Of a DNA stretch of 64,000 nucleotides, positions 29,033 to 49,207 are shown piece after piece (within the stretch, counting starts at the first letter, position 1; each line of letters opens with the position of its first letter). Source of the stretch: Epidermidibacterium keratini (GTDB lineage: Bacteria > Actinomycetota > Actinomycetes > Mycobacteriales > Antricoccaceae); assembly GCF_009834025.1 (NCBI RefSeq), contig NZ_CP047156.1, positions 930,001 to 994,000 of the forward strand. The letters are read 5' to 3'. The notes beneath the pieces were generated by a model. That model searched no databases. It saw only the letters and a list, made by a program, of their open reading frames with translations, and had not been told where the DNA came from. Position numbers and translations under genes: made by a program.

Positions 29033-29036
29033 GGGC

Positions 29037-32494: not shown

Positions 32495-32498
32495 CGTT

Positions 32499-33443: not shown

Positions 33444-35026
33444 GAGAGCGCCACCCCGCGGAGGTCCTGCATGCCCAGCGTGTTCATGGACACGCTCGAG
33501 ACGTTGTCGCTGAAGGCATCGATCGCATACAGGGAGCAGATCGGCATGAGGTGCGTCGGGTTGTCGATCATCGCCTGCATCATCTGGGCATAGAGCGGCG
33601 CCCGCTCCTGCGGGTCGACCGGCGTCGCTGCCTGCAGCGCAAGATCGGTGATCTGCTGCGAGACCGGCGCACCGACGTCGTACGTCGCGCCGGGCAGCAG
33701 ATGCCGCGAGGCCACGCCGTGCGGGTCGGCGACCCCGGAGTACGGGTTGATGTTTGCCTGCACCGACTTCTGCACCGAGAAGGTCTCGATCACCTGCGGT
33801 GTCGGCACAGCCTGGATCGTCATGTCGATTCCGACCTGTCCCAGCTGATACTGGATGGCTTCAGACAGCTGCATGTACGCCGTCACGTTGGTCGTCACCG
33901 CAGTCATCTCGATGCCATCCGGGTAGCCGGCATCGGCCAGCAGGGCCCTGGCCTTCTCCGGGTCGTAGGCCCACACATCGAGGCCGTCACCGATCTCGTC
34001 GCTGTAAGCGAAGCTGTCTTCGGGCCAGGGCTGGATCTGCGGCCGGCACATCCCCTCGTAGAAGCCGTTGCCGATGGCTTCGCGGTCGATCGCGTAGTTC
34101 AGTGCCTCAAGCACCAAGGGGTTGTCGAAGGGCGCCTGCGCGGAGTTGACCGTCAGGTAGGCAAAGAGCGAGGTGGGCCGCGACACCATGTTGAACCCGG
34201 CCCGGTCGGCGGCGTTCATCTGGAAGGCACGCACCGACGCCCCATCGACCTGCCCCGAGAGCAGAGCGTTGAGCCGAGTCTGGTCGTCGGTCATGAGTTG
34301 AAAGGTCATCGTGGCTACCCGCTGCACGGACGGATCCCAGTAGCCCTCGCGCTTGGCGAAGTCGGTGTAATTGGCGGCCACGGTCTCGGTGACGACGTAG
34401 ACGCCCGCTCCGACCGGCTGCTGGCCGAGCGTCCCGGATTCAATCGCCGCCGGCGAGGCCATCATGCCTGCGCGCTGGGACAGCGAGCCAACAAGCGCAC
34501 CGGCACCGGTGGGCGCGACGAGCCTGACGGTGTACTCGTCGATGATCTCGACCGACTCCAGCTGCGCGATCTCCGTGGCGATGCGGCTGCCCTCGCCGAC
34601 CGCGCGATCGAGATTGATCTTTACCGCCTCGGCGTTGAACGGGGTGCCGTCGGAAAACGTGACCCCCTCGCGCAATGTCAGATCGACGGCGGTTCCGTCG
34701 GCGGTCGGCGTCCAGCTCGTCGCCAGCATCGGCTCGAGGTCACCGTTCGGCGAGGACCACACGAGACGGTCGTAGACCGGGGCGAGGAAGACGAAGTCGT
34801 AGCCGGAGACGCTTTGGGTGGGATCCCAGCTGGAGGTCGCCACCGAGTACGCGTAGTCGAAGTGCGCCTCCGGGTCGAAGTCGTCCTGGAGCGGAATCTC
34901 ATCGACGTACTGCCCTTGGTGGCCCTCGGTGCGGTTGGGCGCAGAACCACAGGCGGCCAGCACCAGTAGCGCAACAGTCAAAAGGGCACCGAGCGGCACA
35001 CACCGTCGGGAGAGGGTCAGGGTCAT
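33440..35026 (-). CDS. Peptide/nickel ABC transporter substrate-binding lipoprotein
   Basis: A 528-residue family-5 solute-binding lipoprotein. It starts MTLTLSRRCVPLGALLTVAL, with the lipobox LAAC (Cys24), followed by the SBP_bac_5 fold: WTPTADGTAVDLTLREGVTF, FSDGTPFNAEAVKINLDRAV and an ALNYAIDREAIG block. The frame is open to 35059, but ATG 35026 puts the signal peptide correctly. It is the first gene of the oppABCDF-type operon. The ligand may be peptides, nickel or other solutes. Confidence 0.92.
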   Translation of the reverse strand: MTLTLSRRCVPLGALLTVALLVLAACGSAPNRTEGHQGQYVDEIPLQDDFDPEAHFDYAYSVATSSWDPTQSVSGYDFVFLAPVYDRLVWSSPNGDLEPMLATSWTPTADGTAVDLTLREGVTFSDGTPFNAEAVKINLDRAVGEGSRIATEIAQLESVEIIDEYTVRLVAPTGAGALVGSLSQRAGMMASPAAIESGTLGQQPVGAGVYVVTETVAANYTDFAKREGYWDPSVQRVATMTFQLMTDDQTRLNALLSGQVDGASVRAFQMNAADRAGFNMVSRPTSLFAYLTVNSAQAPFDNPLVLEALNYAIDREAIGNGFYEGMCRPQIQPWPEDSFAYSDEIGDGLDVWAYDPEKARALLADAGYPDGIEMTAVTTNVTAYMQLSEAIQYQLGQVGIDMTIQAVPTPQVIETFSVQKSVQANINPYSGVADPHGVASRHLLPGATYDVGAPVSQQITDLALQAATPVDPQERAPLYAQMMQAMIDNPTHLMPICSLYAIDAFSDNVSSVSMNTLGMQDLRGVALS

Positions 35027-35210
35027 GCTGCATCCTTCATATGCTTGGGATGCCCGCAATGGCCGCGACGGTCAGCCGATCGCGATCATAGAATGGGACT
35101 CTAGAAGAGGACTAGGTAACGGGACAGCGCCCATGCAACCATCGATCGGTAGGAACGGGCGCCGCGAGCACTGATCGACATGTTTTCGTTACCAACTGTC
35201 CGCCACACGA

Positions 35211-35253
35211 CTGTGGCGTTCGACATCCGCACGCGGGATGTCGAACGCCACAG
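35211..35253. terminator. 18-bp perfect hairpin downstream of the monooxygenase gene
   Basis: Arms 35211-35228 and 35236-35253 are perfect 18-bp complements with a 7-nt loop. On the minus strand it follows the stop of the ABM-domain gene (35270) by 17 bp, so it is a probable terminator insulating the downstream opp operon. No T-tract. Confidence 0.7.
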
Positions 35254-35269
35254 GTGGTGATGACGGAAG

Positions 35270-35578
35270 CTAGATCGTGCCCTTCTGCGGGTCACCGGAC
35301 GGCGCCGGTCGCAGCGGCGTGATCGAGGCCTGCTCGGCCAGCAGATCCTGGGTCGCAGCACGCAGCGCCTTGATCGGCTCACCATTTGCGTGGGCCTCCA
35401 GGGCGTCCTTGTCGGCCCACGACTCGATCAGATAGACCTTCTCCTTCGTGGAGTGGAAGGCATACTTCTCACACCCGGCTTCGGCATGAACCGCTGCGGC
35501 GCCGGACGTCAACGCTTCCAGCAGCTCGTCCTTCTTGCCCTCCAGCGGGGTGTACTCCACCAGCAACACAATCGACAC
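35270..35578 (-). CDS. Antibiotic-biosynthesis-monooxygenase (ABM) domain protein
   Basis: A 102-residue ferredoxin-like protein, VSIVLLVEYTPLEGKKDELL at the start with CEKYAFHSTKEKVYLIESW in the middle, matching the ABM/quinol monooxygenase (YgiN-like) family. These act as dimers on quinols or polyketides. GTG 35578 is preferred over the longer frame because GGAGG is 6 nt upstream. It lies 44 bp after the PPK2 stop on the same strand and could be cotranscribed with it. Confidence 0.82.
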   Translation of the reverse strand: MSIVLLVEYTPLEGKKDELLEALTSGAAAVHAEAGCEKYAFHSTKEKVYLIESWADKDALEAHANGEPIKALRAATQDLLAEQASITPLRPAPSGDPQKGTI

Positions 35579-35622
35579 GTCGTTCCTCCAACTAGCTTGG
35601 GACGGATGGGGCACGCCCCACG

Positions 35623-36660
35623 CTACTGGTTAGGGATCTGCGGGAAGATGTTTGCCGCCTGCTCGCCCTCGTCGTACTGCTCAGAGCCCTTGCCGACGAT
35701 AAGCGGGTCCGGGGCGCCGACGACGTCGCGATCCTTGCTCGGGTAGTCGAACTGCGACAGCACAAAGCGCATCGCTTCGATCCGCGCCCGCTTCTTGTCA
35801 TTGGACTTGATGACCGTCCACGGCGCTTCAGGGGTGTCGGTGTAGAAGAACATCGCCTCCTTCGCCGCCGTGTAGTCATCCCACTTGTCGATGCTCGCGA
35901 GGTCGGTCGGTGACAGCTTCCACTGCTTGACCGGGTCAGTACGCCGAGCGGCGAAGCGTTCGGCCTGCTCGGCGCGACCGACCGAGAACCAGAACTTGAT
36001 GATCGTGATCCCGGCATTGACCAGCATCCGCTCGAACTCGGGGCAGGAGCGGGTGAATTCCAGATATTGCAGCGGAGTGCAGTAGCCCATCACGCGCTCG
36101 ACCCCGGCCCGGTTGTACCAGGACCGGTCGAACATCACGATCTCGCCGGCGGCCGGCAAATGCGCGGCGTACCGCTGGAAGTACCACTCGGACTGCTCGC
36201 GCTCGGTCGGTTTCTCCAGCGCCACCACTCGGGCACCGCGCGGGTTGAGGTGCTCGGTGAAGCGCTTGATCGCCCCGCCCTTGCCCGCCGCGTCACGGCC
36301 CTCGAAGATGATGACGACCTTCTGCCCGGTCTCCTTGACCCAGCTCTGCCACTTCAGCAGCTCGATCTGCAGCTGGCGTTTGAGCTTCTCGTATTCCTTG
36401 CGCGGCATCTTCTCGTCGTACGGATAGCCGTGCCGCCAGGCGGGCAACTCATCCGGCGCGGACTGCGGCGCAGGCTCGTCGATGCGGCGAAGCTCTGCGA
36501 TCTCGTCGATCTCCGGGGTGATGTCGCGCGCACCGGGCGGCTCGTCGGCCACGAGCTCGACCACTTCGCCGCGCTGGTCCTTCACCTTGTGTGGGCTGGT
36601 CGCCTTTGGGTTCTTCGGCCGGTTTCCTTCTGGTTTGGCATTGTTGCTGCGCGTAGCCAT
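35623..36660 (-). CDS. ppk2: Polyphosphate kinase 2 (PPK2)
   Basis: A 345-residue P-loop kinase that transfers phosphate between polyphosphate and nucleotides. The first 85 residues are charged and variable. Walker A is IIFEGRDAAGKGGAIKRFTE, the lid region includes RGARVVALEKPTEREQSEWY, and Walker B is VMFDRSWYNRAGVERVMGYC. The single PPK2 domain of about 230 residues with an N-terminal extension fits class I. ATG 36660 has GGGGAAG upstream. Confidence 0.93.
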   Translation of the reverse strand: MATRSNNAKPEGNRPKNPKATSPHKVKDQRGEVVELVADEPPGARDITPEIDEIAELRRIDEPAPQSAPDELPAWRHGYPYDEKMPRKEYEKLKRQLQIELLKWQSWVKETGQKVVIIFEGRDAAGKGGAIKRFTEHLNPRGARVVALEKPTEREQSEWYFQRYAAHLPAAGEIVMFDRSWYNRAGVERVMGYCTPLQYLEFTRSCPEFERMLVNAGITIIKFWFSVGRAEQAERFAARRTDPVKQWKLSPTDLASIDKWDDYTAAKEAMFFYTDTPEAPWTVIKSNDKKRARIEAMRFVLSQFDYPSKDRDVVGAPDPLIVGKGSEQYDEGEQAANIFPQIPNQ

Positions 36661-36729
36661 CGCTTCCCCGCACGGTCGGTCTCGACTCGGACACCGCCAG
36701 CCTAAACCGCCAGCCGGGTGCACTGGGGG

Positions 36730-37614
36730 TCAGCCGGATGCCGCTTCGACCTCGCGGATGAACTGCCGGTGAACGGCGCTGGCATCGAGTACGCCGGACG
36801 CTCCGAACGCGGCAATGTCGGCCGCGTCCGACGTACCCGGCCAGGTGTGCTCGGCCGTCTCGTCGACCAGCAGGCGCACCGCAGCGAAGCCGTCGGCTCG
36901 CTCAAAGCGCAGCTCCCGAACGGAGGGAGCCGGACTCGTTGCCCGTTCGCGTACGCCGCCAGCGTGCGCGGCCCAGCGGCGGACGGCATCGTCGACGGAC
37001 TCACCCCAGCGCGGGCTCGTCCCGCCGGCGTACGGGTTGATCTGGTCTCGGGCGCCGTGGATCGCCAGCACCGGCGGCACCTGGCCGGCAAGATCCTCTG
37101 GATAGCGCACCCCGCTCACGAACGTGACCGACGCGAGCCGCCTGTCGACCGCGGCAACGAACGGCGCGAGAAGGCGCGCGCCGCCGGAGTAGCCGCGCAG
37201 GTGGATGCGCTCCGCGTTGATCCCGAGCTCTGCAACGACGTGACCGATCAGCCGATCGAGAAAGTCGATGTCGTCCGGCCCGGAGCGTGGCGTCGACTCG
37301 CCCGGCAGAGGCGCGCCTGGGATGTTCCAGGCCCATCCGGCTCCGATGCGCTTGTCCATCGTGAAGTCGATCGCCGCTTGCGGCGCGATCACCACTGCCT
37401 CGCCAGCCGCGACGAGCTCGTGCGCGCCCGTGACGGCAAGATGATGCGCTGGCGTCAGCCCGCTGCCGTGTAGGTCAACGATCGCTGGCACGTCAGCAAG
37501 GTCAACGTCGGTACGCCGCACCACGGTGAAGCGCCTGGTGTCTGCACCGGATCGGAGCTCGCGGCGTTCGTGCACGACACCGTTGTCGTGACGGCTGCCG
37601 GACCCCGACACCAC
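36730..37614 (-). CDS. PHB-depolymerase/feruloyl-esterase-type hydrolase
   Basis: A 294-residue alpha/beta hydrolase of the LpqC-like esterase branch. IVDLHGSGLTPAHHLAVTGA holds the oxyanion loop (residues about 45-64), GYSGGARLLAPF the nucleophile Ser (about residue 140), PVLAIHGARDQINPY the acid, and ETAEHTWPGT the catalytic His. No signal peptide, so it is predicted to be intracellular. Its start codon overlaps the oxidoreductase stop by one nucleotide (shared 37614), so the two are cotranscribed. Confidence 0.82.
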   Translation of the reverse strand: MVSGSGSRHDNGVVHERRELRSGADTRRFTVVRRTDVDLADVPAIVDLHGSGLTPAHHLAVTGAHELVAAGEAVVIAPQAAIDFTMDKRIGAGWAWNIPGAPLPGESTPRSGPDDIDFLDRLIGHVVAELGINAERIHLRGYSGGARLLAPFVAAVDRRLASVTFVSGVRYPEDLAGQVPPVLAIHGARDQINPYAGGTSPRWGESVDDAVRRWAAHAGGVRERATSPAPSVRELRFERADGFAAVRLLVDETAEHTWPGTSDAADIAAFGASGVLDASAVHRQFIREVEAASG

Positions 37615-38624
37615 TAGATGGACTCGCTGCCGTGCGGGAGCAGGACCGCCCTGCCGCGGGCATTCGGTCCGAGAGTCCCGAAGGCCGTCGCCGCCTCGGC
37701 AAGCGGGTAGGTGCGGTCGACTCGCACGGGAGGCAGCGACCCGTCCTCGATCCGCGGAGTGAGCTCCCGCAGCATCTCGGCGGCATCCGCAGCCGAGACC
37801 CGCCCGGTATAGAGACCTTTCACCACCAGCGACTTGCGATACAGATCCAACAGGTCGACCTCCGAGGGCACCTCGTCCGGCGGCGTACTCAGCAGGACGT
37901 AGCGGCCATTTTGTCCCATCGCACGCAGCAGGTGACCGGCGAGCTTGCCTCCCACGGCGTCCACTGCCGCGGCCGCACCGTCAGTCCCGACCGCCTCCGC
38001 GATGTCGGTGGCGATGTCGGGGCCGTCGATCACGACCGTGTCAAAGCCGGCCTCACGAACCAGCGCGGCCTCATCGTCGTTGCGCACCACAGCGACGACG
38101 TGCGCGCCATCGCCTCGTGCGATCGCGGCTGCTGCGCCGCCCACACCCCCGGCGGCTCCGGTGGCGATGAACGTCGAACCGGACTCGATCTGCCCGGTCA
38201 GCCGCAAGGCATAGGCCGCGGTGAAGAAGGCGAGCGCCGACGCCGCGGCGTCGACGAACGACAGGCCCTGCGGCAGCGCGGTAAGAGCATCGCGCGATAC
38301 CGCTAGATACTGGGCATAGGTTCCGTCGCGGTCCAGACCCAGGTCTCCCCCTCCCGAGCCCCACACCGAGGTGCCGACGAGCGACTCGGGACCCTCGATG
38401 ACAACCCCGGCGAAGTCGCGGCCGAGGATGCGCGGAAACGGTCCGGGCAGCACACCACGGCAGGCGAGCATGTCGCTGCGGTTGATGGAGGCGGCACGGA
38501 CTTCGACGAGGACGTCGTCGGCGCCGATCGCGGGCACGTCGACGACGGTTTCGCGAAGATCTGCCGGATCACCGGCTGCATCGGGGCGCAACGCCCGCAT
38601 CGTCGTACTCGAGCGCGTAGTCAT
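37614..38624 (-). CDS. Quinone-oxidoreductase-like MDR dehydrogenase
   Basis: A 336-residue medium-chain reductase. The N-terminal GroES-like part has RAASINRSDMLACRGVLPGP and ILGRDFAGVVIEG, and the NAD(P) Rossmann part has FIATGAAGGVGGAAAAIARG. The cysteine ligands of zinc-dependent alcohol dehydrogenases are absent, so it is a zinc-free quinone/enone reductase. It is the first gene of a two-gene unit with the esterase. The 124-bp region before it is AT-rich (38659-38682, with TTATCAAATATCA), a probable promoter or operator. Confidence 0.88.
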   Translation of the reverse strand: MTTRSSTTMRALRPDAAGDPADLRETVVDVPAIGADDVLVEVRAASINRSDMLACRGVLPGPFPRILGRDFAGVVIEGPESLVGTSVWGSGGGDLGLDRDGTYAQYLAVSRDALTALPQGLSFVDAAASALAFFTAAYALRLTGQIESGSTFIATGAAGGVGGAAAAIARGDGAHVVAVVRNDDEAALVREAGFDTVVIDGPDIATDIAEAVGTDGAAAAVDAVGGKLAGHLLRAMGQNGRYVLLSTPPDEVPSEVDLLDLYRKSLVVKGLYTGRVSAADAAEMLRELTPRIEDGSLPPVRVDRTYPLAEAATAFGTLGPNARGRAVLLPHGSESI

Positions 38625-38748: not shown

Positions 38749-39942
38749 CTACCCCGCGACCACTCCGGTGCTGCGCAAGGCAGCGACGTCGGCCTCGGAG
38801 TAGCCGAGCTCGGCGAGTACGCCGTCGGTGTGCTCACCCAGCAGCGGACCGGCCGTGCGCACCGTCGGCGTGGTTGCCGACAGCTTGGCCACTGGACCCA
38901 GCACGTTGATCTCACCCATGACCGGATGGACGACAGTCGCGGCCATCGCGCGCTGCGCGACCTGGGGTTGCGCCATCGCTTCGGCGTACGTAAGCACCGG
39001 GCCGCCGGGCACTCCTGCGGCGTCGAGGCGCTGCGCCCAGTAGTCGGTCGGGTGCTCTCGCAGCAGCACCGACAGCTCATCCTCAAGCTGGTCGACGCGA
39101 GCGATCCGATCTGCGGACGCGGCGTACTCCGGACGCGTGATGAGATCGGGACGCTCGAGCACGTCGCGGCAGAGGATCTCCCACAGCTTCTGGTTGTTGG
39201 CGCCGATCGTCACGTAGCCATCTTTGGTCGGAAACGCTTGGTACGGCGCGATCTTTCGATGCCTCGAACCCGTGGCGACCGCGTCCTCGCCGGCGCCGAA
39301 GTAGGCACCTGCTTCCCACACCGTGAGCCCGATTCCGGCATCAAGTAGCGACACGTCGATGTACTGCCCCTCGCCCCCACGGAGCCGATGCACGTAGGCC
39401 ATCGTGATCGCGAGCGCGGCGTTGAGGCCGGCGGCGAGATCGGTGACGGCTACGCCCATCTTGGCCGGCTGGCCCTCCGGCGCGCCGGTCATCCGCAGGA
39501 ACCCGGCCATCCCTTGCGCGATGATGTCGAAGCCGGGCCGTCGGCTGATCGGACCGGTCTGCCCGAAGCCGCTGATCGAGCAGTAGATGAGGTTGGGGTT
39601 GGACCCCGCGACACTGGCGTAGTCGACGCCAAGACGGGCGGTGACTCCCGGGCGGAAGTTTTCGACGACGACATCGGCGCGGTCGATGAGCTCACGAACG
39701 ATCCGGACACCGTCGTCGCTGCGTAGATCGACTGCGATAGAGCGCTTGTTGCGGTTGGGCTGCTGGAACGGGAAGCTCTCACCGCCGGACTGCGGGCCCA
39801 TCGCGCGCGAGTCGTCGCCGGTGCCGGGCCGCTCGATCTTGATGACGTCGGCACCGTAATCGGCGAGCTGCATCGTGCAGTAGGGACCGGCGAGGAACTG
39901 GCTGAAGTCGACGACGCGTACGCCGTCCAGCGGCAGCGGCAC
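38749..39942 (-). CDS. CaiB/BaiF (class III) CoA-transferase
   Basis: A 397-residue enzyme of the formyl-CoA transferase family that moves CoA between carboxylic acids. The N-terminal DGVRVVDFSQFLAGPYCTMQ and DYGADVIKIERPGTGDDSR are typical, and the catalytic Asp is in VAVTDLAAGLNAALA. Reading is open to 39996, but GTG 39942 overlaps the upstream stop (TAGTG) with GGAG 8 nt upstream, which marks coupling, and matches the family N-terminus. It is the last gene of the leftward SDR operon. It probably activates an acid intermediate for breakdown. Confidence 0.9.
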   Translation of the reverse strand: MPLPLDGVRVVDFSQFLAGPYCTMQLADYGADVIKIERPGTGDDSRAMGPQSGGESFPFQQPNRNKRSIAVDLRSDDGVRIVRELIDRADVVVENFRPGVTARLGVDYASVAGSNPNLIYCSISGFGQTGPISRRPGFDIIAQGMAGFLRMTGAPEGQPAKMGVAVTDLAAGLNAALAITMAYVHRLRGGEGQYIDVSLLDAGIGLTVWEAGAYFGAGEDAVATGSRHRKIAPYQAFPTKDGYVTIGANNQKLWEILCRDVLERPDLITRPEYAASADRIARVDQLEDELSVLLREHPTDYWAQRLDAAGVPGGPVLTYAEAMAQPQVAQRAMAATVVHPVMGEINVLGPVAKLSATTPTVRTAGPLLGEHTDGVLAELGYSEADVAALRSTGVVAG

Positions 39943-40823
39943 TACTTGGCTCCGGTTGTCGATGCCGACAGCGACCTCGGATCGCGGGGACCCCAACCGC
40001 CATGCCCGACCTGGCTGAAGAACTGGTCAAGCAGCAGGTTGTAGAGCTCGGGCTCCTCGAGGTTGGTGACGTGCCCGGACTTCGGCAGCACTGCCAACCC
40101 GCAGCGCGGAACGATCCGCTTGAGCATCAGGTCGGTCTCCAGCACCCCGTCGTCCTCGTCGCCGGCGATCACCAGCAGCGGCGCGTCCATCGCGGCAAGC
40201 TCGTCCTGCAGTGCATACAGCGACGGACGCGACTTCTGCACTGCGCGCATCGTGAGGCTGGCTCCCAGATCGCTGTGCTCAGCGAGCACCTGCACGTGCT
40301 CGGCGTGTCCCTCGGGGTCCTTCGCTGCATACTGCACCCGGGCCGGACCGATGCCGTACCACGTCGCCATCGTCGCCGCTCCCTCGTTTTCGAAGGCCTG
40401 CGCGATGGTCTCGCTCTCCTCGCGGAACTTCTCCTGCTTCTCCGGGTGGGCGCCATACCCCGCACCAGAGGCGACGAGGCCGAGGACTCGGTCCGGATGG
40501 CGCATACCCACGTGCAGTACGGCGAACCCGCCCATCGAGTTGCCGACGAAGTAGGCCTTCTCGGCGCCGATCGCGTCGAGTACGGCGACCGCGTCATCTG
40601 CCGCCCGATGCTGGCCGTAGGCCGTCGGGTCTTCCGGGACGTCGGAGGGCGGGTAGCCGCGCGCACCGTAGGTGATGCACCGGAACCGGCGCGAGAAGTA
40701 GCGCAGCTGGTGCGGCCAGGATCGGTGGTCGCCGGCGAACTCGTGCACGAAGACGATCGGCGTACCGCTGCCGCGCTCCTCGTAGTAGAGACGTACGCCG
40801 TCGTCGGTGGTCGCGTAGGGCAT
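39942..40823 (-). CDS. Alpha/beta hydrolase (enol-lactonase/C-C hydrolase type)
   Basis: A 293-residue hydrolase of the 3-oxoadipate enol-lactonase and ring-cleavage hydrolase branch. IVFVHEFAGDHRSW gives the oxyanion loop, FVGNSMGGFAVLHVG the Ser nucleophile, VIAGDEDDGVLE the acid and PKSGHVTNLEEPEL the His. The last 25 residues (after FFSQVGHGG) are an unusual tail. AGGAGG lies upstream of ATG 40823. It is coupled to the CoA-transferase. A role in opening a ring product is inference from the neighbours. Confidence 0.88.
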   Translation of the reverse strand: MPYATTDDGVRLYYEERGSGTPIVFVHEFAGDHRSWPHQLRYFSRRFRCITYGARGYPPSDVPEDPTAYGQHRAADDAVAVLDAIGAEKAYFVGNSMGGFAVLHVGMRHPDRVLGLVASGAGYGAHPEKQEKFREESETIAQAFENEGAATMATWYGIGPARVQYAAKDPEGHAEHVQVLAEHSDLGASLTMRAVQKSRPSLYALQDELAAMDAPLLVIAGDEDDGVLETDLMLKRIVPRCGLAVLPKSGHVTNLEEPELYNLLLDQFFSQVGHGGWGPRDPRSLSASTTGAK

Positions 40824-40849
40824 GGCTCCTCCTGAGTCCTTCGGTCAGG

Positions 40850-41440
40850 CTATCTCCGGCGCAGCAGCCGGATCAGCGCGTACGTAGCGATGGCGCTCGC
40901 TGCGGCTGCCACAACAGCGGCGGCCGATACGGCTGGCGACACAGTGCGCGACTCGGTGATGCGCTCCGGCACCGGTGGTGTGATGTCGTCCGGCGGCGGG
41001 CTGGACAGAGCTTGCTCGACGTTGGCCGCGAAGCGTATGAGTGTCTGAGTACTGGCCTCGGTGAGCGCACCGGCGCCGAACTTCGCAGCCATACCGCGGA
41101 TGCTGAGATCGGTCTCGACCTGCAGCCACGTCCGATCGTCGCGCGGAGTCAGCCGCACCGAGACGAGTGCGTCTGCGCGGCCGCCGCCCTCGCGCTCACG
41201 CCCATAGGCGCGGACCCGCAACATCATTTGCTGCCGGTCGATTTCCCTCAGGGACGCGACGCCGGTGTAGTCGGCGGTGTAGGGACCGAGGCGCAACGTC
41301 AGCGCCCCCTCGGCGCCATTGCCTTGCCGCCGGGTCACCGAGGCCCCCGGCAGGCACGCCGCGACGCGCTCGGGATCCTGCAGCAAGGCGAAAACTTCGT
41401 CTATGCCGCAGGCAATCTCGACGTCATCGCACAGCTGCAT
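40850..41440 (-). CDS. CoxG-like SRPBCC protein with C-terminal membrane anchor
   Basis: A 196-residue protein. Residues 1-150 match CoxG/SRPBCC (MQLCDDVEIACGIDEVFALL; DPERVAACLPGASVTRRQGN; ADYTGVASLREIDRQQMMLR), proteins associated with CO-dehydrogenase-like molybdenum hydroxylases. Residues about 165-196 form a membrane helix (SAAAVVAAAASAIATYALIR) and a basic end, so it may hold the enzyme complex at the membrane, as proposed for CoxG. ATG 41440 is the first in-frame ATG after the SDR gene. It lies in the SDR operon, not in the hydroxylase operon. Confidence 0.85.
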   Translation of the reverse strand: MQLCDDVEIACGIDEVFALLQDPERVAACLPGASVTRRQGNGAEGALTLRLGPYTADYTGVASLREIDRQQMMLRVRAYGREREGGGRADALVSVRLTPRDDRTWLQVETDLSIRGMAAKFGAGALTEASTQTLIRFAANVEQALSSPPPDDITPPVPERITESRTVSPAVSAAAVVAAAASAIATYALIRLLRRR

Positions 41441-41448
41441 AGACTCGC

Positions 41449-42246
41449 TCAGCGCTCCATCAGGGGTTTGCGCTGGGCACCGTCGATCGGGATGTGCGCG
41501 CCGTGCACCGCGCCGACCCGGTCCGAGCACAGCATCGTCACCAGAGCGGCGACCTCCTCGGGCTGCGTGATGCGACCGATCGGCACAGAGCGCTCGGCGG
41601 CCTTGCGCGCCTCGTCTTGGCTGACGCCCATGTCCCGGGCGAAGGCCTTCTCCAGGGTGTCCCATCGATCGGTATCGACCGGGCCGGGGTTGACGGTGTT
41701 GACGCGCACGCCCTTAGGCCCGTACTGGTCGGCGATCGAGGAGGCGAAGTTGAGGTCGGCCGCGTTCGCCGCTCCGGCGGTCATCTCCCAGAAGCTGGGC
41801 TTCAGCCCATCGTTACCCACGACCAAGATGATGGTGCCCTTGCCTTGCTTGACCATCTGGGGCACGACTGCCCGCACCGAGCGCACGTAGCCCATGAACT
41901 TCAGGTTCAGCGAGGAGTGCCACTGCTCATCGGTGAGCTCCTCAAGCAGGCCGCCTGGCGAGCTGCCCGCGCAGGTGACGAGGATGTCGATCTTGCCGAA
42001 CTTCTCCAGTGCGGCCTGCACGCAGCGCTCGACGTCCTCGCTCTTGCTCATGTCGCCGGCATACCCGACGACCTCCTGGCCGGTGGCCTCACTGAGCTCT
42101 TTCGCGGCCTTCTGGAGGTTGTCGTCGTCGCGCCCGGTGATCACGCAGGTGACACCTTCGTCGCCGAGGTGCTTTGCGACCTGGTAGCCGATGCCCTTGC
42201 TTGCTCCGGTGATGAAGGCAACCTGCCCAGCGAGGTTGAGATCCAT
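41449..42246 (-). CDS. SDR-family protein lacking the canonical catalytic Tyr/Lys
   Basis: A 265-residue Rossmann protein. The cofactor loop FITGASKGIGYQVAKHLGDE is intact. The usual active-site Ser-Tyr-xxx-Lys is not: after TIILVVGNDGLKP the segment reads SFWEMTAGAANAADLNFASS, with no Tyr-xxx-Lys at the expected place (Asn replaces Lys). The C-terminus VGAVHGAHIPIDGAQ is normal. It may be a non-classical dehydrogenase or hydratase-like SDR. ATG 42246 is preferred over the longer frame to 42327, which would run through the operator. First gene of the operon with coxG-like, hydrolase and CoA-transferase genes. Confidence 0.88.
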   Translation of the reverse strand: MDLNLAGQVAFITGASKGIGYQVAKHLGDEGVTCVITGRDDDNLQKAAKELSEATGQEVVGYAGDMSKSEDVERCVQAALEKFGKIDILVTCAGSSPGGLLEELTDEQWHSSLNLKFMGYVRSVRAVVPQMVKQGKGTIILVVGNDGLKPSFWEMTAGAANAADLNFASSIADQYGPKGVRVNTVNPGPVDTDRWDTLEKAFARDMGVSQDEARKAAERSVPIGRITQPEEVAALVTMLCSDRVGAVHGAHIPIDGAQRKPLMER

Positions 42247-42274
42247 GATGCGCTCCGATTTCGACGGGTTCGGA

Positions 42275-42297
42275 TGGTATACCAAGTTGGTATACCA
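42275..42297. promoter_or_regulatory. Tandem GntR-type operator before the SDR operon
   Basis: Two perfect palindromes TGGTATACCA at 42275-42284 and 42288-42297 are set 13 bp apart, 29 bp before the SDR start. The same word occurs at 43048 and, with small changes, at 49167, 57651 and 57663. The gntR gene at 49208 is the obvious candidate binder. GGTATA repeats are known targets of the FCD-type regulator NanR, a useful parallel but not proof. Confidence 0.75.
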
Positions 42298-42330
42298 GAT
42301 CGAAACATCCGCGGCGGCAAAGCGCAAGGC

Positions 42331-43005
42331 CTAGAAGGTCGCCTTGCCGTCCCAGCCGGCGTTGCGAGTGCGCTCTCGCGAGAGCTGCTCAACGAGCCCG
42401 GGAGCCGAGGTCACCGTCTTGAAGTCGGCGACGGCCCGAGGATCCAGACAGAGCAGGTGCTTCACAAGCACACTCGCCGCCTCCCAAGGATCCGGCGCGA
42501 TCTGTGGAATCAGCCCATACGCCAGTAGCTGCTCGGCATCGAGCCACCGCGAGCTCAGTGCGAGATCGGTAGCGACCGAGCGGCCCACCAGCTCTGGCAG
42601 GATCCACGCACCCACGACAAGGCCATGGCCCGCACCGACCCAACGCATGCGGGCGCCTCCGCCGGCCACCCGCAGATCGGCCGCCGCCATCAGCTGCGCT
42701 CCCCCTCCGACCGCGAGACCCTCGACGACGGCGACGACCGGTCCTGGCCGCGTCACCATCAGCTCGTAGATCGCATAGAGGGTGTCGCTGACCTGCGCGC
42801 GATCGTCGTCACTCGCGCGCAGATCCGCCCCAGCGCTAAAGACATCCGGACTCGTGCTGCCGAGCACGAAGACGGCTTCGGGGTCTCGCTGGAGCTCGGC
42901 GTACAGCGCAGTCACCGTGTCGAGGCCGATGGCGTTCTTGCGTGCCGGATCGGCGAACCGGAAGCGACGTGCACCTGCCCAGTCGTCGATCTCCCCCTGT
43001 GCCAT
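42331..43005 (-). CDS. Enoyl-CoA hydratase/isomerase homologue lacking both catalytic Glu
   Basis: A 224-residue crotonase-fold protein. FSAGADLRASDDD (CoA/oxyanion loop, residues about 61-73) and VVAVVEGLAVGGGAQLMAAA are recognisable. In rat mitochondrial hydratase the second region reads GGGCE and a later block PE; here the positions are Gln (GGGAQ) and no Glu (RMRWVGAGHGLVVGAW), so hydration as in classical enzymes is unlikely. Another crotonase reaction or a non-enzymatic role is possible. ATG 43005 gives the normal N-terminus; the frame beyond it runs over the operator and FAD-subunit gene. It is divergent from the molybdenum-hydroxylase operon. Confidence 0.82.
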   Translation of the reverse strand: MAQGEIDDWAGARRFRFADPARKNAIGLDTVTALYAELQRDPEAVFVLGSTSPDVFSAGADLRASDDDRAQVSDTLYAIYELMVTRPGPVVAVVEGLAVGGGAQLMAAADLRVAGGGARMRWVGAGHGLVVGAWILPELVGRSVATDLALSSRWLDAEQLLAYGLIPQIAPDPWEAASVLVKHLLCLDPRAVADFKTVTSAPGLVEQLSRERTRNAGWDGKATF

Positions 43006-43092: not shown

Positions 43093-43965
43093 ATGAAGCC
43101 CGCATCGTTCGAGTATCACCGCGTGTTTACCGCCGATGAGGCCGTCACGCTGCTGGCCGAGCTCGACGACGAGGCGAAGGTGCTTGCCGGCGGTCAAAGC
43201 CTCGCGCCCATGATGAACTTCCGGTTGGCCCGTCCGAGCGCCCTCGTCGACATCAACCCGGTAGGTGAGCTCGACTATGTGCGCCGCGACGGCGACGTAC
43301 TGAAGATCGGCGCGCTCACCCGGCACCGCACCATCGAGCTGCTTGATGATCCCTCGATCATCGATGGGTACGGCGTACTTCCTAGTGCTGCTAGGCATAT
43401 CGGCCACTTCCCCATCCGCACCCGGGGCACTGTCGGCGGCAGCATCGCGCACTCCGACCCATCGGCCGAATGGTGCCTACTGGCACTGCTGCTCGATGCC
43501 CAGATCGTCACGCTCGGACCGCAGGGACGCCGCGAGACGGCGGCGCGTGACTGGTTCACCGGCTTCTTGACAACAAGCATCGAGCCGGGCGAGATCGTCG
43601 TCGAGACCGCATTTCCGCGTCCACGGGCACGTGCCGCACTCACCGAGTATGCGCAGCGCAAAGGTGACTTCGCGATCTGCTCCGCCGCAGTCGCCTACGA
43701 CGACGCAGACGGCGTGATGAGCGATCCGGCGATCGTCCTAGGCGGCGTCGCCTCCGAACCGTTCCGCAGCTCCGAGCTTGACGAGATCGCCTCCGGCCTT
43801 CCTGCCGAGCCGTCGAGCTTCACCCGGATCGCCCGCGCCGCAGCCGATCTCATTGACCCGCCGTCTGACCTGCATGGCGACTCGGCGTACCGAAAAGATC
43901 TGGCACAGACCATGATCGAGCGGGCCTTCGCTGAAGCCGCCGACGGACCGGTGAGCGCTCGATGA
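43093..43965 (+). CDS. Molybdenum hydroxylase FAD-binding (medium) subunit
   Basis: A 290-residue subunit of the CoxM/XdhB type. FAD motifs are LAGGQSLAPMMNFRLARPSA (residues about 33-52) and TRGTVGGSIAHSDPSAEW (about 111-128), followed by the CO-dehydrogenase flavoprotein C-terminal domain. It passes electrons from the 2Fe-2S subunit to an acceptor. GAGGGG precedes the ATG, and the gene overlaps the large subunit by 4 nt. First gene of a four-gene operon. Confidence 0.92.
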   Translation: MKPASFEYHRVFTADEAVTLLAELDDEAKVLAGGQSLAPMMNFRLARPSALVDINPVGELDYVRRDGDVLKIGALTRHRTIELLDDPSIIDGYGVLPSAARHIGHFPIRTRGTVGGSIAHSDPSAEWCLLALLLDAQIVTLGPQGRRETAARDWFTGFLTTSIEPGEIVVETAFPRPRARAALTEYAQRKGDFAICSAAVAYDDADGVMSDPAIVLGGVASEPFRSSELDEIASGLPAEPSSFTRIARAAADLIDPPSDLHGDSAYRKDLAQTMIERAFAEAADGPVSAR

Positions 43966-46316
43966 CCGACCCCGCGCGCCCGTTTACCTGGGTCGGTCAA
44001 CGCGTGCCGCGCCACGAGGACCCACGCTTCTTGCGCGGCGCTGGGGCCTATACCGACGACATCGCGGTCGTCGGGGCGCTGCATGCGTCGTTCGTGCGCT
44101 CCCCCGTCGCCGCCGGCCGAATCGTCTCGGTTGATCTCGAAGAGGCTCGCAACATCCCCGGCGTGGTTGACATTCTCACCGCTGATGACCTCGGCCGACC
44201 GGCTCTTCGCGCCGTCCTAGAGCGCGATGGGTTCGTCGCCACAGACATGCCGTTACTTGCCGCCGACCGGGTGCGCTACTGCGGCGAGCCGGTTGCCGTC
44301 GTCATCGCTGAAGACGCCTACTCAGCAGAGGACGGCGCCGAGTCCGTCATCGTGGAGATTGCCGACGAAGCGGCGCCGGTCGATATCGACTCCGCCGCCG
44401 GCAACCCGCTGCATGAGGAGGCGCCCGACGGGGTGCTTGTCGACCTGCAGATGTTCGACGACCCGTCGATCGAGCAGGTGCTCGACGAGTCGCACGTGGT
44501 CCTCGACGAGCAGTTCACCTCGGCACGAGTCAACGCAGCGCCCATGGAGTGCCGCGCCGTCGTCGCCGAGCTCGACCGTCGTGCTGGACAGCTGGTGGTA
44601 CACACCTCCACGCAGGTGCCCCACCAGGTGCGGTCGGGAATCGCCCAGGCGCTTGGCATGGCCGAGGGCGAGATCCGGGTCATCGCACCGGATGTCGGTG
44701 GCGGTTTCGGGCTCAAGTGCGTGGTCGGGCGCGAGGAGGTCGTCGTAGCGGCGGCCGCCCGCAGGCTCGGTCGGCCGGTGCGATGGAGCGAAGACCGACG
44801 CGAAAGTCTGATGGCCTCGTTCACCGGTCGTGAGCAGCGATACCACGTGCGCGCCGGCTTCACCGAGGACGGCGTACTCACCGGAATCGACGCCGACATC
44901 CAGGTGGACGTCGGGGCGTACTCGGCCTATCCGTTTACCTGCGGGGTCGAGCCGCTGATGGCGTGCACCGAGCTGCCCGGCGTCTACCGGGTCGGTGCCT
45001 ACTCCGCTCGTGGGCGCGGGTACGCGACGGCAAAATGCCCCACCGCCCCATACCGCGGAGTCTCGCGACCGCAGATCGTGATGGTCATGGAGCGGCTGAT
45101 GGACAAGGCTGCGACCCTTCTTGGCATCGACCCGATAGAGATACGGCGTCGCAACCTCATCACTGACTTTCCTTACACCGGGCCGAATCTGATCACCTAC
45201 GAGCCTGGCTCGTATCTGCAGTCGCTAGATGACTGCGAGCGGGCGATTGACGCGGCCGGCTGGCGTGAGATCACCGCCAACGCGCAGGAACCGTACCGAT
45301 ACGGCATCGGGATCTGTTGCTTTTCGGAGCGTTCGGCGTACGGGACACCGACGATGGGCGCCCGGCGCATGGGCATGACGCCCGGCTACGACGTGGCACA
45401 CGTCCGGATGGACCCGAGCGGTCATGTCACGGTCACCACTGGCACCTGCGGGCATGGGCAGGGCCACGAGACGACGTTCGCCCAGATCGTCGCCGACCAA
45501 CTCGGTATCGAGCCGGCTCAGGTGCGGCTACGCCAGGGCGACACCGATCTTTCTAGCTATGGCTGGGGAACTTTCGCCAGCCGCAGTTTGGTGATTGGCG
45601 GCACGGCGATCCGCGCGGCCTCTGTGCGGCTGGCCGAGACGCTAAAGCAGGTTGCCTCCGATGTGCTTGAAGCCGACCCGGCGGACGTCCGGCTACGCGA
45701 CGGCGCTGCGTGGGTTGACCGGGTCAGCGTTCCGGTAAGCGACCTCGCGCAACGGGTTCACTTCCGCGCCCATGAGCATCCCGACCTGCCCGAGCAGCTG
45801 CTCGAGGCTCGCGGCGAGTCCGATCCCGATGGCTGCTTCTCAAACGCGACGCATGCCGCCCTCGTGCGGATCGACACGCAGACCGGCGATGCCCACGTGG
45901 CGGACTACATCGTCGTCGAGGACTGCGGCGTGGTGGTCAACCCGATGATCGTCGACGGACAGGTTCGCGGCGGAGTCGCCCAAGGTATCGCTGCCGGGCT
46001 TCTCGAACGCCTGGAGTACGCCGAGGACGGGCAGCCGATGTCTGCCACCTTCATGGACTATCTCGTGCCAACGGCGAGCGAGATCCCGAATGTGGCGATC
46101 CACCACCTCGAGACCCGAAACGAACAAAACCCCTTAGGAGCCAAGGGAATGGGCGAAGGCGGCACCATCGGCGCACCCACCGCCGTACTCGGTGCAGTCA
46201 ACGACGCGCTGCGCGACACCGGCACGCAGTTCGACCACATTCCCGTGTTGCCAGCGCAGATTCGCGCCGCGTTCCGCGGCGTCGCGAGTCCCGCAGGGCG
46301 TAAGGAGATCGCGTGA
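43962..46316 (+). CDS. Molybdopterin-binding (large) subunit of molybdenum hydroxylase, copy 1
   Basis: A 784-residue xanthine-oxidase-family large subunit. N-terminal VGQRVPRHEDPRFLRGAGAY and the VRYCGEPVAVVIAEDAYSAE block begin the ald_xan_dh domain. The molybdenum-site loop reads APYRGVSRPQIVMVMERLMD, unlike form I CO dehydrogenases (AYxCSFR) and form II enzymes (AYRGAGR). The catalytic Glu is in AKGMGEGGTIGAPTAVLGAV near the C-terminus. It is a hydroxylase of unknown substrate. Shares only the general pattern with copy 2 (46795). Confidence 0.9.
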   Translation: MTDPARPFTWVGQRVPRHEDPRFLRGAGAYTDDIAVVGALHASFVRSPVAAGRIVSVDLEEARNIPGVVDILTADDLGRPALRAVLERDGFVATDMPLLAADRVRYCGEPVAVVIAEDAYSAEDGAESVIVEIADEAAPVDIDSAAGNPLHEEAPDGVLVDLQMFDDPSIEQVLDESHVVLDEQFTSARVNAAPMECRAVVAELDRRAGQLVVHTSTQVPHQVRSGIAQALGMAEGEIRVIAPDVGGGFGLKCVVGREEVVVAAAARRLGRPVRWSEDRRESLMASFTGREQRYHVRAGFTEDGVLTGIDADIQVDVGAYSAYPFTCGVEPLMACTELPGVYRVGAYSARGRGYATAKCPTAPYRGVSRPQIVMVMERLMDKAATLLGIDPIEIRRRNLITDFPYTGPNLITYEPGSYLQSLDDCERAIDAAGWREITANAQEPYRYGIGICCFSERSAYGTPTMGARRMGMTPGYDVAHVRMDPSGHVTVTTGTCGHGQGHETTFAQIVADQLGIEPAQVRLRQGDTDLSSYGWGTFASRSLVIGGTAIRAASVRLAETLKQVASDVLEADPADVRLRDGAAWVDRVSVPVSDLAQRVHFRAHEHPDLPEQLLEARGESDPDGCFSNATHAALVRIDTQTGDAHVADYIVVEDCGVVVNPMIVDGQVRGGVAQGIAAGLLERLEYAEDGQPMSATFMDYLVPTASEIPNVAIHHLETRNEQNPLGAKGMGEGGTIGAPTAVLGAVNDALRDTGTQFDHIPVLPAQIRAAFRGVASPAGRKEIA

Positions 46317-46792
46317 AAGACCTGCATCTGATCACAGTCATCGTCAACGGTCGCGAACACGAGCTGGTCATCGAGTCGCGGCGGACCCTTGCCGACATGC
46401 TCCGCCAGGACCTCGGGCTCACCGGCACGCACCTCGGCTGCGAACATGGCATCTGCGGCGCCTGCACCGTCTTGCTCGACGACGAGCCGGTGCGTGCCTG
46501 TCTCATCTTCGGGGTGCAGGCCGACGGCCGGTCGGTTCGTACCGTTGAGGATCTCGCCGACGGCGACTCGCTTTCTGAGTTGCAGCAGGCATTCTCGAAA
46601 CATCACGGACTCCAGTGCGGCTTCTGCACCCCTGGGTTCTTGATGCTGGCCGAGTCCTATCTCGCGAGCCGTCCTGAGCCGGACAAGGACGAGATCCGCG
46701 ACGTCGTCGCCTCCAACCTGTGTCGCTGCACCGGCTACCAGGGGATCGTCGAGGCGATCCACGAGGTCGCCGCGGCACAGCAGGGCGGCTGA
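46313..46792 (+). CDS. Molybdenum hydroxylase 2Fe-2S (small) subunit
   Basis: A 159-residue CoxS/XdhA-type subunit. The plant-ferredoxin-type cluster is bound in GCEHGICGACTVLLDD (residues about 43-58) and the second cluster in CGFCTPGFLM and NLCRCTGYQGIVEAI (about 101-146). It carries electrons between the molybdenum centre and FAD. It lies between the two large-subunit genes, overlapping the first by 4 nt, and could serve both. Confidence 0.93.
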   Translation: MKDLHLITVIVNGREHELVIESRRTLADMLRQDLGLTGTHLGCEHGICGACTVLLDDEPVRACLIFGVQADGRSVRTVEDLADGDSLSELQQAFSKHHGLQCGFCTPGFLMLAESYLASRPEPDKDEIRDVVASNLCRCTGYQGIVEAIHEVAAAQQGG

Positions 46793-46794
46793 GC

Positions 46795-49146
46795 ATGACT
46801 GCCACGAGTACCGACCGATCGACCCTAGGCTCGTACGTCGGAAGTCGCGTGGGACGCAAGGAAGATCAGCGACTGTTGCGCGGCGAGGGCCGCTTCGGAC
46901 ACGACGTGCAGCGGCCGCGGATGCTGCACGCTCGTGTCGTTCGCTCCAACGTCGCGCACGGCCGCATCGTCGACATCGACGTCGGCGAGGCCAAGGCGCT
47001 CCCCGGTGTCATCGACGTCGTCACCGGTCATGACTTGCCGCGACCGGTGACGATCCCGGTGCGACTTGCGGTGCAAGACGTCGATCTCACCGACTATCTC
47101 CAACCGATCCTGCCTACCGACGAGGTGCGATACGTCGGCGAGCCGATCGCCGTCGTAGTCGCCGAAGACGCCTATGTCGCAGAGGATGCCGCCGAGCTCG
47201 TCATCGTTGAAACCGAGGAGCTGCCCGTCGTCCTCGACACGACCAGCGGTGATGAGTCCGTCACGATCGCGGCTGATTTCGGCATGGGGTACGGCGATAT
47301 CGCTGAGGCATTTTCCCAGGCCGACCATGTCACCGAGCTCGTCTTCGACATCGGCAGACACAGCGCGGTGCCGATGGAGCCACGCACCCTCGTCGTGGAT
47401 CCGAGCGGTGGCGAGCTAGAGATCTTCGGGACGACGAAGGTGCCGGTCTTCAACCGCCAGGTGCTCGCGACACTGCTCGGCATCGACGAGCAGCAGATCC
47501 GCATGCATGCGGTCGATGCGGGAGGCGGCTTCGGCGTGCGGGGCGAGTTCTACCCCGAGGACTTCCTCATCCCGTGGCTCGCGCAGCGGACCAGCCATCC
47601 GGTCAGCTGGGCCGAGGACCGACAGGAACACATGGTCGCGGTCAACCACAGCCGCCAGCAGCAGCACCGACTCTCGCTGGCACTCAAGAACAATGGCGAG
47701 ATCCTCGGCTTGCGCGCCGATGTGATTCACGACAACGGCGCCTATGCCCGCACCCACGGCATCATCGTTCCCGAGCTGACGATCGCGATGCTCCCTGGGC
47801 CATACCGGGTCCCGGCGTACGACGCGCGGGTGCGGGTCGCTCTGTCTCACAAGACCCCGTGCGGCACCTACCGGGCACCCGGCCGTTTTGAGGGAACGAC
47901 CAGCCGCGAGCAGCTGCTCGACAAGGCGGCGGACGAGCTCGGCATCGATCGAGTCGAGCTGCGGCGTACCAACCTGCTCGTGCCCACCGAGCTCCCCCAT
48001 GCCCGCGAGCTGGGCACGCTAGGCACCGACATGCTGATCGACAAAGGCGACTTTCCCGGCTTGTTTGCCACGGCGCTTGATCGCGCGGCCGAGCTGGGCT
48101 GGGTCGATACGGTTGCGGAGATGCGATCAACGGGCCGGGTAGGCGGCATCGGGATCGCGATGTTCATGGAGAAGAGTGGCCTCGGACCGTACGACACCGC
48201 CGATGCCGAGATCACCAGTACCGGCCGGCTGAGGATCTATTCCGGCGGCACGTCTCTCGGGCAAGGGATCGAGACGGCATTGGCTCAGATCGCCGCCGAC
48301 GTGATTCCCGTGGGCCTCGATCGGGTTGACGTCATTAACGGCGACACCGCCGAACAGCCCTTCGGCACGGGATCCTGGGCGAGCCGCTCCACCGTCGTTG
48401 CCGGCAATGCGGTGCGTGGCGCGTGTCAGCAGGTCGCGGACCGGATGATTGGGCTGGGCGCGCGCGTGTTGGAGGTGGCGCCGGATGACCTCGTGCTCGA
48501 CGAGTTCGGCGTACGACACCGGCAGGAAGCGGACAAAGCCTGCAGCTATTGCGATCTCTCCCGATTTGCCGGTCCCGGATCGCCGCACCTACGAGCCGAC
48601 GAGCCCGCCGGTTTGCGACGACGTACTCGCTTCACCGTCGACCACATGACGTATCCGTACGGCGCGCACGTGTGTCTGGTCGAGATCGACCCTGGGACCG
48701 GCGGGGTTCAGGTGCACGGATATCTCGTGGCCTATGAAGTCGGGGTCGCGGTCAACCCGACGATGATCGAGGGTCAGCTGTACGGCGGGATCGCCCAAGG
48801 CATCGGCGGAGCGCTGCTTGAGGAGTTTCGCTACGACGAGGCAGGACAACCGCAAAGCGCCACGTTCATGGACTACCTCATGCCAACGGCGGCCGAGGTT
48901 CCGCCGATGGAGCTGGCGGTGCTCTCCAACCACCCGGCGTCGACCAATCCCCTCGGGGTTCGTGGTGCCGGCGAAGGCGGGTTGACCGCGGCGGGCGGGT
49001 GCCTGGCCAGCGCGGTGCGCGACGCGCTCGCCCATGTCGCACACGCTGAGCGAGATATCGTGCGGCTGCCGATTACGCCCGCCGAGCTACGGCGACGGCT
49101 GAGATCGGCGTACTCGCCCGACGCGAAACCGGTTGCTGACATGTAG
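46795..49146 (+). CDS. Molybdopterin-binding (large) subunit of molybdenum hydroxylase, copy 2
   Basis: A 783-residue xanthine-oxidase-family large subunit of a different sequence from copy 1. It starts SYVGSRVGRKEDQRLLRGEG. The molybdenum-site loop is CGTYRAPGRFEGTTSREQLL, again not the form I or II CO-dehydrogenase motif. The catalytic Glu is in VRGAGEGGLTAAGGCLASAV. The presence of two large subunits with one FAD and one 2Fe-2S gene is unusual. ATG 46795 follows the small-subunit stop by 2 bp. The upstream frame to 46720 is antisense to nothing and overlaps that gene, so I reject it. Confidence 0.9.
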   Translation: MTATSTDRSTLGSYVGSRVGRKEDQRLLRGEGRFGHDVQRPRMLHARVVRSNVAHGRIVDIDVGEAKALPGVIDVVTGHDLPRPVTIPVRLAVQDVDLTDYLQPILPTDEVRYVGEPIAVVVAEDAYVAEDAAELVIVETEELPVVLDTTSGDESVTIAADFGMGYGDIAEAFSQADHVTELVFDIGRHSAVPMEPRTLVVDPSGGELEIFGTTKVPVFNRQVLATLLGIDEQQIRMHAVDAGGGFGVRGEFYPEDFLIPWLAQRTSHPVSWAEDRQEHMVAVNHSRQQQHRLSLALKNNGEILGLRADVIHDNGAYARTHGIIVPELTIAMLPGPYRVPAYDARVRVALSHKTPCGTYRAPGRFEGTTSREQLLDKAADELGIDRVELRRTNLLVPTELPHARELGTLGTDMLIDKGDFPGLFATALDRAAELGWVDTVAEMRSTGRVGGIGIAMFMEKSGLGPYDTADAEITSTGRLRIYSGGTSLGQGIETALAQIAADVIPVGLDRVDVINGDTAEQPFGTGSWASRSTVVAGNAVRGACQQVADRMIGLGARVLEVAPDDLVLDEFGVRHRQEADKACSYCDLSRFAGPGSPHLRADEPAGLRRRTRFTVDHMTYPYGAHVCLVEIDPGTGGVQVHGYLVAYEVGVAVNPTMIEGQLYGGIAQGIGGALLEEFRYDEAGQPQSATFMDYLMPTAAEVPPMELAVLSNHPASTNPLGVRGAGEGGLTAAGGCLASAVRDALAHVAHAERDIVRLPITPAELRRRLRSAYSPDAKPVADM

Positions 49147-49166
49147 CTTTGGGTATTCTTTCTCGT

Positions 49167-49176: not shown

Positions 49177-49207
49177 AAATCGACGCGAGATGGGCTGCCG
49201 GTACTCG

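Follow-up and report, generated by a model that had tools for sequence, protein, structure and literature searches.

A candidate GntR-controlled gene set of Epidermidibacterium keratini for the catabolism of an N-heteroaromatic carboxylic acid

In a 64,000-nucleotide stretch of the Epidermidibacterium keratini genome (contig NZ_CP047156.1, positions 930,001 to 994,000; hereafter the window), genes for a short-chain dehydrogenase/reductase (SDR), a CoxG-like protein, an alpha/beta hydrolase and a CaiB/BaiF-type coenzyme A (CoA) transferase lie beside a crotonase homologue and a molybdenum hydroxylase, which raises the question of what substrate such a combination could degrade, and by what chemistry. 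We read eleven genes, those of the hydroxylase among them, as a single catabolic unit, and put the probability at roughly 0.6 that this unit is one GntR-controlled regulon for the catabolism of an N-heteroaromatic (pyridine-type) carboxylic acid. Most likely, the ring of this nitrogen-containing aromatic acid would be opened without oxygen being used on the ring.

The leftward run from the SDR to CaiB, with gaps of 8 and 26 bp, was proposed in an earlier note made from the letters alone, and the coordinates of the open reading frames (ORFs) and the Pfam matches agree with it. The GTG start of CaiB at 39942 overlaps the hydrolase stop by one base (TAGTG), and the Pfam scores of the crotonase, SDR, CoxG-like, hydrolase and CaiB products all exceed the curated cut-offs. 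The functional unit is larger than this segment (38749-43005), adding the genes for the FAD subunit (M), the first large subunit (L1), the [2Fe-2S] subunit (S), the second large subunit (L2) and a GntR regulator (43093-49816), together with a major facilitator superfamily (MFS) transporter (57711-59069).

What ties these genes together is a short putative operator. The 4.02 Mb genome contains exactly six mismatch-free matches to the decamer TTGGTATAYC, and each lies at a promoter of the eleven-gene set: two before the SDR, one at the crotonase/CoxM promoter, one before gntR and two before the MFS gene. The divergent crotonase/CoxM promoter and the region ahead of the SDR contain palindromes near TTGGTATACCAA, TGGTATACCA is present at three sites in the genome, every one within the set, and a 12-mer scan of the window with up to two mismatches found 6 copies where shuffled sequences gave an expectation of 0.14. 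Since the set is conserved in other genera and the decamer occurs nowhere else in the genome, the grouping exceeds chance; the earlier note's coupling of the five leftward genes to the hydroxylase is supported. The 84 bp that follow the crotonase stop contain the SDR's own promoter region with two operator copies, and the crotonase and the SDR-CoxG-hydrolase-CaiB genes are therefore probably two transcription units. The regulator carries both GntR and FCD domains and is presumed to bind the palindromic operators, which are confined to promoters of the regulon.

The MFS protein matches TIGR00895 (aromatic acid:H+ symport) best among the models matched, at 242 bits, below the cut-off of 418.55. 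Its gene directly adjoins gntR in the two genomes of the window's family, G665 and G662, and in two Kibdelosporangium-type loci; in the window the two lie 8 kb apart, with transport and luciferase-like genes in the intervening stretch. This block, absent between these genes in G665 and G662, begins with a SAM-IV riboswitch (RF00634, 49895-50006 on the plus strand, 104.8 bits), after which come an ABC transporter of amino-acid type and a pair of luciferase-like monooxygenases.

Co-occurrence in other genomes had been named in the earlier note as a check, and among the genomes examined 14 others, some of them from other genera, carry the set too. Together with the window's own genome this gives 15 tabulated genomes that have the core, to which two outliers were added. 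Of 52 loci from one search, the 11 best were examined, the remaining 41 being 24-39% identical in the best segment. Across the 15 core genomes, L1, S and L2 are each found in all 15, M and the crotonase in 14, the SDR in 13 and the CoxG-like gene in 11, and absences are weak evidence here because a number of loci are truncated where a contig or stretch ends. The GntR/FCD regulator is found in relatives' loci too. Clusters in G665 and G662 are compact (MFS-GntR-L2-S-L1-M / crotonase, SDR, (CoxG), hydrolase, CaiB). The crotonase/CoxM promoter has like operators in Nonomuraea, in G665, G662 and G668 and in four Kibdelosporangium-type genomes, and all of these except G668 also have them ahead of the SDR; the divergent promoter of G023 has a weaker copy, TGGTATATCA, missed by the 12-mer scan with two mismatches. 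The gene set is rare and scattered. At E <= 1e-20 the crotonase is matched in 6 of 296 genomes of the class, where the window's own and that of G023 (54% identical) alone look orthologous and the other four are 34-40% identical. For the SDR, matches at E <= 1e-60 came from 4 of 41 relatives, own genome counted, and from 2 of 39 genomes in the class of G333.

For the residue comparisons, alignment A3 omitted L040 (a run of N), L052 (a near-duplicate of L051) and the duplicate stretches L114-L116, and alignment A4 omitted L043, whose SDR has an internal stop, as well as L051, L052 and L116. The L2 residue table omitted L040, L114-L116 and L047 (L2 in two pieces), and the L1 table omitted L114-L116. 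The L051 locus (JOAA01000011.1), labelled Rhodococcus rhodnii NRRL B-16535, is closely like that of Kibdelosporangium, and the label is probably wrong.

Table 1. Genes and putative operators of the eleven-gene set (window positions)
Feature	Position	Strand	Remarks
CaiB/BaiF type III CoA-transferase	38749-39942	-	397 aa, GTG start, Pfam CoA_transf_3 427 bits
Alpha/beta hydrolase	39942-40823	-	Pfam Abhydrolase_1 81 bits; Ser96/His251 conserved
CoxG-like / SRPBCC protein	40850-41440	-	Pfam COXG 56 bits
SDR without Ser-Tyr-Lys, probably AerF-like C=C reductase type	41449-42246	-	Pfam adh_short 165 bits
Crotonase homologue, both catalytic Glu replaced	42331-43005	-	Pfam ECH_1 76 bits
CoxM-type FAD subunit	43093-43965	+	Pfam FAD_binding_5 136 bits
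Mo-binding large subunit L1, quinoline 2-oxidoreductase-like	43962-46316	+	PDB 1t3q_B 510 bits
CoxS-type [2Fe-2S] subunit	46313-46792	+	Pfam Fer2_2 103 bits
Mo-binding large subunit L2, Kdh-like	46720-49146	+	PDB 7dqx_A 596 bits; real start probably downstream of 46720
GntR/FCD regulator	49190-49816	+	Pfam FCD 83, GntR 65 bits
MFS transporter	57711-59069	+	nearest subfamily TIGR00895
SDR promoter, putative operator copy 1, ATGGTATACCAA	42274-42285	.	
SDR promoter, putative operator copy 2, TTGGTATACCAG	42287-42298	.	
Divergent crotonase/CoxM promoter, putative operator, ATGGTATACCAA	43047-43058	.	same position in relatives
Putative operator preceding gntR, TTGGTATATCAA	49166-49177	.	
Putative operator copy 1 preceding MFS, TTGGTATATCAC	57650-57661	.	
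Putative operator copy 2 preceding MFS, TTGGTATACCTA	57662-57673	.	

A closer look at the hydroxylase shows FAD, [2Fe-2S] and molybdenum-binding subunits with a catalytic Glu, as in the molybdopterin cytosine dinucleotide hydroxylases of the xanthine oxidase family (M-L-S). L1, whose closest solved structure is quinoline 2-oxidoreductase (Qor), has the loop PYRGVS and the catalytic Glu in 15 of 15 sequences. L2, closest to 6-hydroxypseudooxynicotine dehydrogenase (Kdh), has the loop TYRAPG, with the catalytic Glu in 11 of 13 rows and a gap at the position in the other two. According to PMC8305194, Kdh hydroxylates a pyridine ring that is already hydroxylated, thus adding a second hydroxyl, and Glu345 binds the amine tail of the substrate, the E345A variant being inactive. 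The Kdh residues F269, R383 and W551 are each retained in 13 of 13 L2 sequences; E345 is replaced by Gly and A344 by His in all 13, which rules out that L2 is Kdh itself. A single M and a single S alongside two distinct catalytic large subunits suggest two consecutive hydroxylations, probably of a ring without the nicotine tail. The active-site loop of form I CO dehydrogenase, AYRCSF (as given in PMC8305194), is absent from both large subunits, so CO oxidation is rejected, in line with the earlier note, which had seen no match to known CO oxidation gene sets.

The SDR departs from the classical ketoreductase pattern. Where the canonical reductase has Ser, Tyr and Lys, it has G144, A157 and N161, invariant in 12 of 12 SDR orthologues. 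Its best sequence match is the C=C reductase AerF (172 bits), likewise without the Tyr-Lys pair, and AerF also heads the VIA-align matches to an AF2 model of the SDR (Z 32.2-32.8, rmsd 2.3-2.6, 252-253 residues aligned, 36-37% identity). The enzyme is thus probably a C=C reductase of AerF-like type and not an ordinary alcohol dehydrogenase.

The crotonase homologue is altered in a comparable manner, with Q104 and G124 at the positions of the catalytic glutamates in 12 of 12 orthologues; these we take to be Glu144 and Glu164 in enoyl-CoA hydratase numbering. Because both glutamates are replaced, ordinary enoyl-CoA hydration is unlikely. Five other crotonases in the alignment have Glu at both positions (three) or at one (two), and lack the H127 that is invariant in the orthologues. 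A predicted model (pLDDT 88) confirms the crotonase fold with Z up to 28.7, and many crotonases fall within 1-3 Z of each other, so the fold gives no pointer to function. A role resembling methylmalonyl-CoA decarboxylase was also weighed, from residues alone, and finds no support.

The slot for a hydrolase is filled differently among the relatives. An alpha/beta hydrolase occupies it in the window, G665, G662, two Kibdelosporangium-type genomes and Saccharopolyspora, with orthologues 53-84% identical in 7 other loci; all 8 sequences retain S96 and H251. Other relatives have an AS-family amidase with a GGSSGGS motif or a Pfam Cyclase (KynB-type) protein. The ligase and amidase share one stop-free frame in L049 (7519-9987, Kibdelosporangium philippinense) and L125 (6985-9618, G668), which is possibly a fusion enzyme; in L048 they occupy different frames. 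Two related Cox-type clusters (L044 and L045, in G370 and G420) combine three large subunits with a Pfam Cyclase protein, have isochorismatase-type or nitrilase-type hydrolases nearby, and probably serve a further N-heterocycle pathway.

Activation with CoA, proposed in the earlier note, is supported by CaiB in the window and an AMP-forming CoA ligase in most relatives. CaiB occurs in 3 of the 15 core genomes (the window's, G665 and G662) and the ligase in 10 others (G459 has only a 49-bit fragment), the two never together in any tabulated locus. The best NCBIfam model among those matched by CaiB is succinate-glutarate CoA-transferase (SUGCT; 305 bits, below the equivalog cut-off of 750), and its best PDB match is succinate-hydroxymethylglutarate CoA-transferase (9br7, 315 bits). 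In G333 the cluster is adjoined by an acyl-CoA dehydrogenase that by sequence is a glutaryl-CoA dehydrogenase (GCDH; 547 bits to 3sf6), and a GCDH match stands beside the cluster also in G639 and G454. The window's genome has nine other CaiB-family members and, elsewhere, a 60% GCDH homologue, with no match of the window's CaiB within the 20 kb read around it. These matches fit a product that is probably glutaryl-CoA.

From the observed gene set, operators, conservation and residue changes we infer a pathway in which every reaction, their order and the substrate are proposed. The MFS protein would import the acid. In a two-headed hydroxylase, M and S would serve both large subunits, L1 hydroxylating a carbon beside the ring nitrogen and L2 a second such carbon, with oxygen taken from water. 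The AerF-like SDR would reduce a C=C bond of the resulting 2,6-dihydroxy ring, or of its cyclic imide tautomer, and the alpha/beta hydrolase would open the imide hydrolytically, a task that in relatives would fall to the KynB-type cyclase and/or the amidase. Either the ring acid or the diacid left by its opening would be made into a CoA thioester by CaiB or the AMP-forming ligase. The altered crotonase may catalyse some CoA-ester step, perhaps a decarboxylation, and the product would join central metabolism, probably via glutaryl-CoA and GCDH. Two orders are conceivable: the ring acid may receive CoA at the outset, which would facilitate hydride addition, with reduction, opening and decarboxylation to follow, or reduction, opening and deamidation may come first, with CaiB or the ligase then making glutaryl-CoA. 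The common frame of amidase and ligase is compatible with both. Compared with the sequence of hydroxylation, CoA transfer and hydrolysis in the earlier note, the catabolic unit and the CoA activation are supported; there are probably two hydroxylations, the SDR is probably of C=C reductase type, and the crotonase is unlikely to be a hydratase. The complete route, aerobic and free of ring oxygenase, from a two-headed hydroxylase giving a 2,6-dihydroxypyridine acid through SDR ring reduction to decarboxylation or rearrangement of a CoA ester towards glutaryl-CoA by the Glu-less crotonase, is put forward tentatively. As a substrate, nicotinate is the leading guess, itself a doubtful one, and isonicotinate comes next with less likelihood; nicotinate is placed first because loss of one carboxyl gives the glutaryl skeleton, where isonicotinate would give a tricarballyl skeleton.

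Several observations weigh against this regulon and pathway. With the essential Glu345 gone, the L2 substrate must differ from that of Kdh. The fold match of the SDR to AerF is only about 1.4 Z above ordinary ketoreductases, and because this margin is small the AerF-like reading draws on the missing residues and the sequence. CaiB is only distantly SUGCT-like, the window's own cluster contains no dedicated amidase or ligase, and the GCDH cases may be a single event, G333, G639 and G454 being one family. Two metagenome-assembled genomes (L053 and L054, of Chloroflexota and Dormibacterota) have the SDR (66-67%), the alpha/beta hydrolase (54%) and diverged hydroxylase subunits, with no crotonase match at either locus; the L053 locus also has a PF04909 amidohydrolase after CoxS. 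The 12-mer scan (up to two mismatches) found no operators in Saccharopolyspora, G333 or G639, so control must differ there. Substrate and reactions, lastly, are deduced from the genes.

Among other explanations, the isonicotinate (citrazyl-CoA) pathway of Mycobacterium sp. INA1 comes closest. There, two molybdenum-dependent steps reportedly hydroxylate isonicotinate to citrazinate; after ligation to CoA the ring thioester is reduced, and hydrolysis follows. The SDR would be the citrazyl-CoA reductase. The enzyme classes of our set fit this chemistry in number and order, a ligase or CaiB is present, and L049 and L125 each have amidase and ligase in a single frame. Against it, the GCDH next to the cluster in G333, G639 and G454, all one family, suits a glutaryl and not a tricarballylyl product, and we consider this pathway rather unlikely. 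No matching isonicotinate or CoA-dependent pyridine-acid gene set was found in open-licence PMC literature, subscription papers lying outside the search. Less probable again is a nitrogen-free acid of furoate, thiophene or terpenoid type, hydroxylated on the ring as its CoA ester, with hydrolases acting on esters or thioesters. CoA activation and a crotonase would suit it, and the L1/L2 family has members acting on CoA esters (4-hydroxybenzoyl-CoA reductase alpha, 356-360 bits for L1 and L2, below the cut-off). Among solved structures, however, both large subunits have N-heteroaromatic hydroxylases as their nearest matches, and AS-type amidases and KynB-type cyclases recur in orthologous loci. 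Steroid or terpenoid acids, which the earlier note had entertained, find no support, since the amide hydrolases in relatives' loci favour an N-heteroaromatic substrate.

That the set is a divergent version of one already known, for nicotinate, purine, quinoline, nicotine or CO oxidation, we regard as very improbable. L2 is homologous to Kdh of the nicotine pathway and L1 to Qor, but the AYRCSF loop is missing, Glu345 is gone, and Pfam recognised no ring-cleavage dioxygenase in the 58 ORFs of the window that were scanned (of the 65 ORFs listed, 8 short ones were left unscanned, nor was the remainder of the genome searched for one), which agrees with the earlier note. That note had also found no match to the nicotinate, purine, quinoline or CO oxidation gene sets known to it, and the bacterial nicotinate routes listed in PMC9304392 rely on other enzymes.

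The genes around the set are read as chromosomal context. An HMG-CoA-lyase-like gene adjoins the cluster in G665 and G662, and its window homologue (28106-29032) lies beside PhoH. As a pathway gene it was rejected, having no matching operator in the window, with rpoC on the other side. The window cluster is framed by the PhoH and HMG-CoA-lyase-like genes (26499-29672) and rpoC (61731-63959), and that of G662 by the HMG-CoA-lyase-like gene and, by eye, PhoH-like and rpoC-like genes, which suggests one chromosomal site within the family. The stretch 29669-38624 (an Opp transporter, PPK2, a Pfam-less ORF and a quinone-reductase-like gene) was excluded because no operator precedes these genes; they are also absent from the compact G665 and G662 clusters.

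If the N-heteroaromatic acid regulon is real, it would identify genes behind a branch of aerobic pyridine-acid degradation that is reductive and depends on CoA, put forward the AerF-like SDR as a new candidate class of enzyme reducing the pyridine ring, bring to light a subfamily of crotonases whose active site is altered, and provide one short operator that marks the pathway in actinobacterial genomes. Judged by its reported chemistry and not by sequence, the INA1 pathway shares two hydroxylations, CoA ligation, reduction and hydrolysis, and differs in that the GCDH neighbour of the window-type cluster suggests another end product. The pyridine pathway of nicotine degradation in Arthrobacter nicotinovorans has, as proposed for the window's set, a second hydroxylation of the pyridine ring by a large subunit of Kdh type that works with M and S subunits; here Glu345 is Gly, L1 and L2 appear to use one M and one S, and CoA chemistry and an AerF-like SDR are present. 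L1 is in the same loop class (YRGV) as Qor, whose partner genes differ from the window's, where no ring-cleavage dioxygenase was recognised. AerF acts in peptide biosynthesis, whereas the window's SDR stands in a catabolic molybdenum-hydroxylase context. The nicotinate pathways of Pseudomonas, Bacillus, Eubacterium/Azorhizobium and Aspergillus, as described in PMC9304392, begin with molybdenum-dependent hydroxylation as here, and that of Aspergillus also reduces the ring before hydrolytic opening of a piperidinedione; the present set differs in its two molybdenum large subunits, an SDR-type and not OYE-type reductase candidate, and CoA activation. The set is thus a variant of N-heterocycle catabolism, real and coherent and different from the compared gene sets, yet not categorically new.

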